IMG/VR virus record: IMGVR_UViG_3300043219_000033
Location: 1-35,541 of that record
Length of the DNA stretch: 35,541 bases
Direction: 5' to 3' (one strand)
Source of the DNA: a virus
Part shown: piece by piece, positions 6,325-11,883 of the stretch
Layout: each line of letters opens with the position of its first letter
How positions within the stretch are numbered: the first letter of the stretch is position 1
Program-made: the position numbers and the translations under genes
Notes under the pieces: generated by a model
Seen by the model: only the letters and a program-made list of their open reading frames with translations
The model's database searches: none
Told to the model about the DNA's origin: nothing

Positions 6325-7197
6325 TTAAAATACTACACATCCAGCTCCGCAATCACCTTCTGAATCAAATAAATCATTTTCATAAATATATTCATCTGTT
6401 GATTTTATGAAAGGTTGCTTAGACATCTCCACTAAGTCTTCTAAGCTTTTATTACCCCTAAAAAAATTCATTCCTCCATTTTCAGCATAACTATTATAAG
6501 AAGGTTTTCCTTCTATTGGTATTTCTCCATATTTATTTTCCATATCTCCCCACCAATAATCAACACCATCCTCTGAAATAATTGTAAGTAACTTTCTGTT
6601 AGCTTTTTCAAAACACTTGTTACAATTACCTTTAAATGCTGGTATTCCTATTTCAATAGGCTCATTATTCCAAAACTTATTTCTATCTTTTGTAGTTATT
6701 CCGTTATCTAATAACGGATAAAATACATTATTTTCTTTAAACTTCACCATTACCCTATCCATTTCATCAGCTCTTAAACCAACAGCAATAGAGTAATTAT
6801 TTAACCCAAATATACTGTCTACATATTTTTTTAATGGTACTAATTTTAATTCCCTATTGCACCATTTATTTATCTTACAAGGTATTCCGTATTTTTTTAT
6901 CCCATCTTCAAATATTTCCCCGTTACGTTTTAATTCTTTAAAGTTTGTAATTATAAAATCTGTGCCTTTTCTTTTTTTTTGATTTATTTTTGCTTCGATC
7001 CATGTCATGTTTAAATTATAGTACTCGTCACATTTATTCATGTATATTAAGCTTTCCTCGTCCTCTTTAGATGTATTTGCCATTGCATAAATTATATTAT
7101 GGTCTGGATACCATTCTTTTATTTTTATAGCCATTAAGACGCTACTATACCCCGCAGATACAGAACAAAATATATTATTATTATCTTTTAACTTCAT
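6325..7197 (-). CDS. PAPS-reductase-like PP-loop protein (290 aa)
   Basis: The N-terminus (FCSVSAGYSSVLMAIKIKEW) is a PP-loop ATP-pyrophosphatase strand-loop-helix; the loop reads S14-A-G-Y-S-S19 instead of the common SGGxDS. HNIIYAMANT is the expected second strand. Downstream are VGLRADEMDR, a metal-binding-type GNCNKCFEKANRK and a cysteine tail (DCGAGCVVF), as in phage proteins labelled phosphoadenosine phosphosulfate reductase. The family includes sulfonucleotide reductases and DndC-like sulfur enzymes; in phages the substrate is generally unknown. Roles in sulfur supply, nucleotide or DNA modification are all possible. Fold call firm, reaction unknown. Confidence 0.8.
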   Translation of the reverse strand: MKLKDNNNIFCSVSAGYSSVLMAIKIKEWYPDHNIIYAMANTSKEDEESLIYMNKCDEYYNLNMTWIEAKINQKKRKGTDFIITNFKELKRNGEIFEDGIKKYGIPCKINKWCNRELKLVPLKKYVDSIFGLNNYSIAVGLRADEMDRVMVKFKENNVFYPLLDNGITTKDRNKFWNNEPIEIGIPAFKGNCNKCFEKANRKLLTIISEDGVDYWWGDMENKYGEIPIEGKPSYNSYAENGGMNFFRGNKSLEDLVEMSKQPFIKSTDEYIYENDLFDSEGDCGAGCVVF

Positions 7198-9588: not shown

Positions 9589-10425
9589 TTAAAAATCTCC
9601 CCATCCGTCTGGGTTTAGATTTTGTTGAATTGTCGCTGCTGTTTGTCTTCCTGCTATTACAGGTTCTTTTATTGGTGTAATATCGAAAATTAATTCGTCT
9701 TCCCATGAATTATTATTTAAAAATGTCATTGGGTCTTTTCTGTACTTCTTATTTGGCTGTGACAAAATGTAATTTGGTATGTATTCTATTATTTTTTCTT
9801 TTACCGATTGTTTTAATGCAGACCATTTTTTTTCGACACTTTCCTTTTTTCCTTTTTTTTTGTCGTATAAATCCCAAAAATCTATAAAAGTTGGATAAAT
9901 CTCAGCCTCTATAAAATCACTATCTAAAAGACTTTCTTTTTTTATTATCTTATCTTCTCTTATCTCATCTCTTTTTATCTCCTCTTCTCTTATCTGTGAT
10001 GTTTTGGTGATCGCTGATTTATCGGGGGGCGATACTTTAGCGAGCTCCAACGCTTCTTTTAACGTCAGCTCTTTAGATATAAACTTATCGTATATGGTTC
10101 TATTCCATCGCTTTAAGTTACCTATCTTACCTTTAGTACTGCTCTTTGCTTTTTCTTCTTCAATACTAGTAAATTGAATGTCTAAGAAACTAATTGATAT
10201 TTTATCACCTGTTAATTTAAAAACGCCTTCGTCTAATAATTCGTTAAACTCCTTATCGTGATTGAGCCGTTTTAAGAATTGTGTTTTAGTTAATTCACAT
10301 TGCCTTTGCCAATAATAAGAGCAAAGATTTATGAATAAGCCTTGAGCAGATAAAGAACAAAAAGATATATCTTTTGTTAAATACTCGGCAGGTTCAAATT
10401 GGAAGTATGGCAGTTCTTTTGCCAT
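9589..10425 (-). CDS. Replisome organiser / replication initiator-like protein (278 aa)
   Basis: N-terminal domain (residues 1-110) starts MAKELPYFQFEPAEYLTKDI and continues with CSLSAQGLFINLCSYYW, the pattern of phage replisome-organiser N-terminal winged-helix domains. The middle (about 145-170) is a very charged run encoded by iteron-like repeats. The C-terminal part (FWDLYDKKKGKKESVEKKW, then DPMTFLNNNSWEDE) matches the tail of lambda O/DnaD-like initiators that recruit host helicase. It should open the origin and load the host replisome. The start overlaps the preceding stop region by a few bases. Confidence 0.8.
   Translation of the reverse strand: MAKELPYFQFEPAEYLTKDISFCSLSAQGLFINLCSYYWQRQCELTKTQFLKRLNHDKEFNELLDEGVFKLTGDKISISFLDIQFTSIEEEKAKSSTKGKIGNLKRWNRTIYDKFISKELTLKEALELAKVSPPDKSAITKTSQIREEEIKRDEIREDKIIKKESLLDSDFIEAEIYPTFIDFWDLYDKKKGKKESVEKKWSALKQSVKEKIIEYIPNYILSQPNKKYRKDPMTFLNNNSWEDELIFDITPIKEPVIAGRQTAATIQQNLNPDGWGDF
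9946..9995. other. Candidate replication origin (iterons inside the initiator gene)
   Basis: The 13-mer tcttctcttatct occurs exactly at 9953-9965 and 9983-9995, 30 bp apart. The core tatct occurs at 9946, 9951, 9961, 9976 and 9991. The stretch is flanked on the low-coordinate side by an A/T-only run. Lambda-like phages place the origin within the initiator gene in just this manner. The same bases encode a low-complexity charged run, so the repeats could reflect coding alone. Confidence 0.4.
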
Positions 10426-10427
10426 GA

Positions 10428-10595
10428 TTAAGCCTTTTTAAGATTAGTTTGTATGCTATGTAAAGCACCTATAAGGCTGTATAATTCTTTTTTAGATAAG
10501 TCTATCCTTTCTTCTCCGTTAATCCATAGACTAACACCATTGTTAATTGGTTCGACCTCTAAAGTGTCGCTTTCATTATTAAACTTGTAAATCAT
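10428..10595 (-). CDS. Small hypothetical protein (55 aa)
   Basis: ATG at 10595, TAA at 10428, ending just before the replisome-organiser start. It begins MIYKFNNESDTLEVEPINNG and has a beta-rich first half followed by a helix (SKKELYSLIGALHSIQTN). First gene after the structured terminator; it may be controlled by read-through of that element. Confidence 0.6.
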   Translation of the reverse strand: MIYKFNNESDTLEVEPINNGVSLWINGEERIDLSKKELYSLIGALHSIQTNLKKA

Positions 10596-10620
10596 AAATG
10601 TATATTTAAAAAATATGTAT

Positions 10621-10725
10621 AAAAAAACCGTACAAAGGTTTGGCTATTGTGGAACGCCTCCCCTTAATACGGTAAATGTTTTTAATCAATGTGTTCCACT
10701 CCATTAACTTGTGGCTAAGATACGA
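10621..10725 (-). ncRNA. Structured terminator RNA with pseudoknot potential
   Basis: Minus strand. ACCGTA (10673-10668) pairs with TACGGT (10632-10627), extended by AAGG/CCTT and GGC/GCC inside, and is followed by a T-run, forming a terminator. Its apical loop holds GTTCCAC (10655-10649), which is complementary to GTGGAAC upstream (10699-10693). The order a-b-a'-b' means an upstream arm can bind the terminator loop. A -7-like TATCTTAG at 10722-10715 has no matching TTG. This fills the 142-base gap after the coiled-coil gene. It could be an attenuator, an antiterminator switch or a short stable RNA. Confidence 0.6.
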
Positions 10726-10737
10726 ATAATTATTTAA

Positions 10738-11883
10738 TTAAAGCTCTGTTATCTTATTTATGTAAGATAATGTTAATGCTTTTCTTTCGTCGTTAAGGTC
10801 GTTAATTAACTTGTCTACGTCATTATTTCCTGTAAGTAATAAATCGTTACTTTTGTTTAATTCTTTTAAAACAGCATCTTTAAAAGGTTTTAATTCTGAC
10901 TGTCTTTTTGTGTCCGCTTTATTCTTTTTGATTATATCGGCTTTTAATTTTTCGTCTGCTAATTTCTTTTTGTCAGCATCTATGATAGCTTGTTTTTCTT
11001 CGGCTGCTTTTCTTAACGCTTCTTTTTGCGCGTCCTCTAATTTTTTCTTATCAGCTTCGAATTGCTCTCTTTCTTTGTTAAATTTTTCACGCTCAATACG
11101 CGCAGCCTCGTCTTTTTCGTCTTGTATTATTTTAGCTTCTGCATCCTTCTTGGCTTGTTCTACTGCAATCCTATTGGTTTCTACTTGTCTTACTTCTTCT
11201 TGTTTTTTAGCTTCTGCTTTTACTGCTTCTAGTTCCTTGGCTTGTTCTGCTGCTAGTTCTTTTGCTTTGATTAATTCTAAGCGTTTTTCTTCTTCGTCCT
11301 GTAATCGAATTACTTTAGTTTCAAGCGTTAATTTTCCAGATTCTATAACTTTTTCTAATTCATCCGAAAACTCCCATGCGTCAATTTTATGGTTTTCTAC
11401 TTTTTCGGTCAGCTCATTAATTGACTCTTCAATATTAGAAAACACCATCTTGTCAGTAATCGTATCTAGTGCAAAATCTAAACTTGCTATTTCTCCTTTT
11501 ATATTTTCTATTCTTAATGATTCTGCTTTCGCTGCTGCTTCTTTTTTATCAATCTTAATTTGCTCCCATCGGTCAATTTCAGTTTGTTGTTTTGTTCTAG
11601 CCTCTAAAGTTATTACTGAAAGTCTCTCAGCTTCTGTTTTACATTCTTTACGGAACTTGACAAGTCCAGACGCTAACGCCTTGTCTCCATTCATTATCTC
11701 TGTACCTCCCCCTTTTAAAGCTGTACGTCTAGCTTTAGCTAATTTTTCAGTAGCACCATCTATTATCTCAATAAATGGATTTTCTTTTACTAGCCCTTTT
11801 TGTTTAGCTTCAATTCCTGCTATGTGAGGTAATTGATTTACTTTCAATGTTGCAATGTCAAATGTTTTGTCTTTTGTACTCAT
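10738..11883 (-). CDS. Long coiled-coil protein (381 aa), function unknown
   Basis: Residues 1-90 form a compact-looking domain with ATEKLAKARRTALKGGGTE and VKFRKECKTEAERL. About 90-130 and 190-330 are continuous heptad-like coiled coil rich in Glu, Lys and Ala. The C-terminus (KPFKDAVLKELNKSND) ends in a small helical piece. Low-complexity matches to TolA or similar proteins would be misleading. Similar proteins sit near single-strand annealing or replication genes in other phages, so a DNA-metabolism scaffold is possible. Downstream is the structured terminator. Confidence 0.75.
   Translation of the reverse strand: MSTKDKTFDIATLKVNQLPHIAGIEAKQKGLVKENPFIEIIDGATEKLAKARRTALKGGGTEIMNGDKALASGLVKFRKECKTEAERLSVITLEARTKQQTEIDRWEQIKIDKKEAAAKAESLRIENIKGEIASLDFALDTITDKMVFSNIEESINELTEKVENHKIDAWEFSDELEKVIESGKLTLETKVIRLQDEEEKRLELIKAKELAAEQAKELEAVKAEAKKQEEVRQVETNRIAVEQAKKDAEAKIIQDEKDEAARIEREKFNKEREQFEADKKKLEDAQKEALRKAAEEKQAIIDADKKKLADEKLKADIIKKNKADTKRQSELKPFKDAVLKELNKSNDLLLTGNNDVDKLINDLNDERKALTLSYINKITEL

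Follow-up and report, generated by a model that had tools for sequence, protein, structure and literature searches.

An RNA element on the minus strand of a viral contig of 35,541 nucleotides (the whole of this stretch is called the window below) is probably a transcription attenuator. Judged from its sequence and those of its relatives, it would be a 5' leader made of two kissing hairpins, placed before replication genes and other early genes. The specific role proposed for the kiss is less certain than attenuation as such. The two hairpins, of which the second is a terminator, their covarying kiss, a promoter motif in most members and a short distance to the next start codon recur together in many viruses that infect flavobacteria, and such a kissing-hairpin terminator looks like an undescribed kind of gene-control leader. 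The timing of gene expression in Bacteroidota phages is poorly understood, and a recurrent, unannotated leader in cultured Flavobacterium columnare phages makes it directly testable.

Architecture and gene neighbourhood

The initial annotation had described a terminator with stem ACCGTA/TACGGT, whose loop carries GTTCCAC, complementary to a GTGGAAC about 38 nt upstream. This arrangement is indeed present between 10621 and 10725 on the minus strand, which carries the genes of the region, and the covariation, loop-swap and genome-scan shuffle results given below place it beyond chance. The upstream arm was correctly located, at a real distance of 37 nt. GTGGAAC (10699-10693, minus strand) and GTTCCAC (10655-10649, minus strand) are perfectly complementary and could form a 7-bp helix; the pairing envisaged as a pseudoknot thus stands, in the form of a loop-loop kiss and not of an H-type pseudoknot, since GTGGAAC is itself a hairpin loop. 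The terminator stem that had been drawn exists (ACCGTA 10673-10668 with TACGGT 10632-10627, minus strand), as the outer part of a longer hairpin. That description also lacked the promoter, the relatives and the hairpin that encloses the upstream arm. The features are as follows, in the direction of transcription.

10738..11883, minus strand: 381-aa coiled-coil protein, phrog_6347-like, gene 5' of the leader; its stop codon is 15 nt 5' of the promoter element
10596-10737, minus strand: gap between the 381-aa coiled-coil gene and the 55-aa gene, holding the kissing-hairpin leader
10715..10722, minus strand: promoter -7-like element TATCTTAG, one mismatch to the Bacteroidota sigma-A TAnnTTTG, without a clear TTG at -33
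10684..10709, minus strand: hairpin 1, stem AGUUAAUG/CAUUGAUU and a 10-nt loop (from folding, and from covariation in relatives)
10693..10699, minus strand: kissing arm 1, GUGGAAC, in loop 1; covaries with arm 2
10674..10683, minus strand: A-rich linker AAAAACAUUU, unpaired on folding
10627..10673, minus strand: hairpin 2, the intrinsic terminator; its stem has a GGC/GCC upper part and a 3x3 internal loop of purines (GGA 10661-10659 / AAA 10641-10639)
10649..10655, minus strand: kissing arm 2, GUUCCAC, within the terminator's apical loop; covaries with arm 1
10621..10627, minus strand: U-run of the terminator, whose first U pairs with A10673
10428..10595, minus strand: 55-aa gene, first after the leader; its ATG is 25 nt 3' of the U-run, and its C-terminal helix resembles phrog_7002, of unknown function
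9589..10425, minus strand: replication-initiation or primosome-like protein (phrog_9327, phrog_270, phrog_9474), second gene 3' of the leader

In hairpin 1, positions 10709-10702 pair with 10691-10684 (minus strand) and enclose the loop G-A-GUGGAAC-A. Many relatives have similar linkers (AAAAACAUU-like). The terminator is built, from its base, of 7 bp, AAGG/CCUU, the 3x3 GGA/AAA internal loop and GGC/GCC, closed by the apical loop GUUCCAC-AAUA; this predicted intrinsic terminator is a stable GC-containing hairpin with the U-run directly 3' of it.

All recognised genes of the window lie on the minus strand, both neighbours of the element included. The downstream gene matches bear out the position 5' of replication genes that had been proposed, and a kissing leader likewise stands two genes 5' of gp025, the homolog of the replication protein in Cellulophaga phage phi10:1. 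A PHROG search with the 55-aa protein itself gave no match; its homologs match phrog_7002. Proteins of this phrog_7002-like family (55-74 aa, C-terminal motif SKKELhSlIGtLlHvQsKmK; window 10428-10595 on the minus strand, L011, L013, L021 and L059-L064) are recurrently encoded by the first gene after a leader, which makes them candidate autoregulators. Elsewhere in the window, the plus-strand open reading frame at 10811-11827 (338 aa) lies antisense to the 381-aa coiled-coil gene as its shadow and is probably not a gene, and a 290-aa protein (6325-7197, minus strand) has by eye the look of a PAPS-reductase-type ATP pyrophosphatase, with no Pfam match.

Relatives of the leader and selection on the kiss

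Relatives were found in IMG/VR contigs, in about 69 F. columnare phage records, in other Flavobacterium phages and in Cellulophaga phages. Pattern and BLAST searches gave L008, L009, L011-L014, the F. columnare records and vB_FspS_snusmum9-1; later searches gave L050, L051, L056, L057, L063, L061/L062, L059, L060, L034 and L006, as well as the Cellulophaga phages phi10:1 and Nekkels_1. One contig (L004) has the same 55-aa gene, with the RNA 850 nt away from it in a different gene context and with arms GUCGAGA/UCUCGAC. Loci found by a protein search with the small protein (L059-L063) have a leader of like kind directly 5' of the gene, with unrelated loop sequences, and L064 has a similar, unscored leader directly upstream. 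Several phages carry more than one unit: three in snusmum9-1, and two each in FCOV-S1, L008, L012 and L013. Replication-type genes downstream comprise, besides the replication protein of the window, a DnaD-like helicase loader (L034) and a helicase and helicase/VapE operon (snusmum9-1); other leaders are followed by HNH endonucleases or by genes of unknown function. Two of them, L041 38605-38720 and L006 3050-3170, stand before HNH or NUMOD4-type endonuclease genes, not replication genes.

The F. columnare phage and snusmum9-1 records viewed carry no RNA annotation for the element. At L042 (MN812237; 9083-9184 and 14006-14169) and L038 (NC_048836; 14157-14300), annotated coding genes overlap it. 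Probably snusmum91_gp041, the annotated 5' end of helicase gp032 and HWC92_gp42 are mis-annotated, and the ATG just 3' of the terminator is the more likely start of gp032. The leader thereby marks likely transcription starts and would correct gene starts in deposited genomes.

The window's exact arms, used as a DNA pattern on viral contigs, gave no further match, because the arm sequences themselves vary. A covariance-model search of 398 Flavobacteriales genomes found none, a weak negative with 10 candidates scored per genome; one pattern scan of genome contigs gave five matches, all judged to be chance, and host-genome searching is weak. Pattern matches at L010, L015, L045, L047 and L049, lacking hairpin 1, promoter or terminator, were likewise set down to chance, and reverse-strand covariance-model matches were mirror images of palindromic stems.

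Covariation of the GTGGAAC/GTTCCAC arms in relatives, proposed as a check by the initial annotation, proved strong. When 11 relatives were aligned on the structure including the kissing helix, 93% of cells were paired, compared to 32-48% with the partners slid; because folds of the same sequences had supplied the structure string, this control is biased in favour of the structure, while the double-change counts and the loop-swap test depend on it much less. In the kissing helix, 98.7% of cells were paired and 4 of 7 pairs had changed on both sides; such changes were also seen at 9 of 12 pairs of the lower terminator stem and 5 of 7 of the hairpin 1 stem, and none of 500 shuffles reached any of these measures. 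The loop-swap test covered 29 leaders with 21 distinct arm pairs. Cognate arms were complementary over 6-8 contiguous bp and non-cognate combinations reached at least 6 bp in only 0.5%, where leaders from complementarity scans match partly by selection and those from the sequence pattern, the covariance model and the protein search (the window's class, L034, L059-L063) do not. The upper stem beside the loop changes in step: GGC/GCC, AUC/GAU (L034), GGU/ACC (L063). Finally, 14 flavophage records were scanned for units combining the promoter motif, a first hairpin, a terminator at least as stable as -12 kcal/mol and loops that match exactly over 7 bp. This gave 15 units, where 40 Markov shuffles gave 0.28 on average and never more than 2, an excess that speaks for reality and not for frequency, since the criteria were shaped on known members and several of the records were brought in by search.

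The element is thus a pair of hairpin loops with conserved, covarying mutual complementarity, and these comparisons indicate that selection acts on the structure of the kiss and not on any one sequence. In phage FL-1 (L044, KY421186, 18914-19025) the loop types are swapped, with ...CAC-AAUA in hairpin 1 and GUGAGACG in the terminator, which suggests selection on the kiss itself and not on hairpin order. That the locus is an ordinary terminator with a complementary stretch upstream by chance is hardly credible: the window fold alone shows a modest excess stability over shuffles (z = -1.87, single sequence) and a simple terminator scan omitted the locus, but covariation, loop-swap test and shuffle control refute this reading.

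Attenuation and the alternatives

In 22 of the 29 leaders, by our own count, an exact TAnnTTTG lies just 5' of hairpin 1. The same consensus has been mapped for sigma-A promoters of F. psychrophilum, a species whose 5' UTRs have a median length of 24 nt (PMC9723704); the window's copy is imperfect. From the U-run to the start codon the distance was 3-27 nt in 16 of 17 measured leaders and 46 nt in one; terminator-like hairpins of the same phages without a nearby promoter stand at a median of 106 nt from the start codon. With a start codon so near the U-run there is no space for a second promoter, and the next gene would therefore depend on read-through. The layout is accordingly that of an attenuator leader: a promoter 5', a start codon close 3' of the terminator, and no second promoter between them. 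Further terminator-like hairpins, without obvious kissing loops, were noticed at window 5953 (minus strand), L037 34074, L039 22366, L041 12040 and 18708, and L044 31841; several have a promoter-like motif just 5' and a start codon 8-52 nt 3', before other genes.

On folding, both arms lie free in hairpin loops of the minimum-energy structures, and keeping both free costs 0.6 kcal/mol on average. Because they are free in the fold that contains the terminator, kiss and terminator are compatible in secondary structure. The initial annotation had also considered competition between an antiterminator and the terminator. This did not survive the folding: with both arms unpaired in hairpin loops, no conserved alternative helix was found that would compete with the terminator, terminator-less structures were on average 12.7 kcal/mol worse, and a switch of the riboswitch type was rejected as no mutually exclusive helix was detected. 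According to these folds, the kiss adds to the terminator and does not replace it. That no alternative antiterminator fold was found weighs against attenuation, since regulation, if it occurs, would have to depend on a factor, a small ligand or kinetics. A NusG-family gene (PF02357) was absent from the 11 phage records searched, with control genomes positive, and phage-encoded antitermination by a NusG paralog of the UpxY/LoaP type was accordingly rejected; a host factor may act instead.

From these features we infer transcription of the leader, its partial termination, its regulation and the nature of the signal. RNA polymerase would start at the Bacteroidota sigma-A promoter and hairpin 1 would form at once; the A-rich linker would come next, then the terminator hairpin, whose apical loop would pair with loop 1 while emerging. 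Some polymerases would stop at the U-run and release a compact RNA of about 95 nt. The others would read through into the phrog_7002-like gene, whose start codon comes within about 25 nt, and on into the gene for the replication protein. The kiss probably sets the efficiency or speed of the terminator, or offers a surface recognised by a factor for read-through later in infection. Several further observations count against attenuation. With all genes in one direction, polymerases arriving from the operon upstream could supply the downstream genes as well; these phages also have some short promoter-terminator units that do not kiss; the window promoter is imperfect; and two phages of Bacteroidota that were tested, Bacteroides phage B124-14 and Flavobacterium phage 6H, have no kissing leader. 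Cis-acting attenuation is nevertheless favoured over the readings that follow.

The terminated product of about 95 nt might instead be a stand-alone small RNA acting on a protein or another RNA, protected and shaped by the kiss, with the downstream gene fed by incidental read-through. We consider this unlikely. The element has its own promoter and terminator and a compact fold, the gene context of close relatives differs (L004, L008 and L009 compared to the window), and Gifsy-1 IsrK is a precedent for a dual role, as terminated sRNA and read-through mRNA (PMC4825925). However, a start codon within 3-27 nt in almost all members would be needless for a free-standing RNA gene, and between types there is little sequence conservation beyond the structure, so that no conserved target-binding stretch is visible.

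The loops could also pair between two RNAs, either a released and a nascent leader or a homodimer, which would give copy-number feedback on the replication genes. Antisense RNAs provide such feedback in phage P4 and plasmids, and kissing loops between copies have reportedly been seen in one study of ROOL and GOLLD RNAs. Covariation fits between-molecule pairing equally well, as it does not distinguish this from pairing within a molecule. By a simple length estimate, moreover, the linker is nominally too short for a straight coaxial stack of hairpin 1, kiss and hairpin 2 in 10 of 27 leaders, the window included; these would need bending or fraying, or between-molecule pairing. The CI RNA of phage P4 does terminate replication-gene transcription by pairing with leader sites (PMC4825925). 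In the other 17 leaders, however, the linker spans the stack, and the local kiss should win by effective concentration; nor was cross-pairing found between the loops of different units in phages with two or three leaders. Pairing in trans is, in our judgement, very unlikely.

Still less credit is given to a riboswitch or protein operator, in which the kiss and the GGA/AAA internal loop would bind a metabolite or a phage or host protein, possibly the small protein encoded next, and so decide termination. One large subgroup shares the 3x3 purine internal loop (GGA opposite AAA or GAA) and an AAUA that follows arm 2, and phrog_7002-like proteins are encoded directly downstream of several leaders. 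Against this, leaders of the same architecture lack those residues (L008b, L012b, L013b, L041b, L042c), several precede other genes, and no Rfam class was matched.

Returning to cis-acting attenuation, a phage-wide extension can be put forward tentatively, although on balance it is doubtful. Several early operons of one genome would carry alike but sequence-orthogonal kissing terminators, read by a common factor or polymerase, which would allow timed read-through into replication genes without a base-pairing antiterminator. Independently of that extension, a terminator tied by a kissing helix to an upstream loop, and indifferent to loop sequence provided that the two loops fit, would follow an unusual logic of control; it would lend itself naturally to deriving orthogonal transcription attenuators.

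Comparison with known systems

A search of Rfam 15 at the gathering threshold gave no match in the window or at eight relative loci, in line with the initial annotation, which had recognised no riboswitch class; matches at relaxed thresholds were at chance level only. The open-access literature searched held no description of a kissing or attenuating phage leader of this kind. A type III toxin-antitoxin RNA (ToxI) was rejected, given one kissing unit at this locus, no tandem-repeat pseudoknot array and downstream genes without a toxin match. The possibility of a CRISPR repeat mimic, raised by a faint resemblance to Cas13b repeats, was dropped, as nothing matched.

The put stem-loops of phage HK022 act on RNA polymerase, through the zinc-binding domain of beta', and suppress downstream termination. 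They form an early-operon leader of about 70 nt with two stem-loops, in two copies of alike architecture per genome (PMC9378689). Common to both systems are thus a phage early leader, two stem-loops 3' of early promoters, and multiple similar copies. However, put, an antiterminator, has no terminator of its own and acts on distant ones, and PMC9378689 mentions no pseudoknot or kissing; in the present leader the terminator is hairpin 2, and its loop kisses that of hairpin 1. In the P4 CI RNA/seqA-seqC system and in Gifsy-1 IsrK, RNA-RNA pairing in a leader causes premature termination and yields a short terminated RNA and a read-through mRNA (PMC4825925). The setting in a phage replication or early gene leader and the two products are as proposed here, but those systems use between-molecule pairing and a processed antisense RNA, whereas here both paired sequences are loops within one leader of about 95 nt and vary from phage to phage. 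Since put, CI RNA and IsrK, the closest analogues in their manner of working, each differ in a defining feature, the leader is filed under none of them.

Attenuating riboswitches and plasmid rep attenuators share the order of promoter, structured leader, intrinsic terminator and start codon; they differ from the present leader, in which no antiterminator helix was detected, no ligand pocket is conserved across all members and no Rfam match was obtained. ColE1 RNAI/RNAII and TAR/TAR* form loop-loop helices of 6-7 bp between two molecules. The helices of the leaders are of like length and in some cases use the whole loop (L006: GGACAG/CUGUCC), but here the kissing hairpins stand in tandem on one transcript that ends in a U-run.
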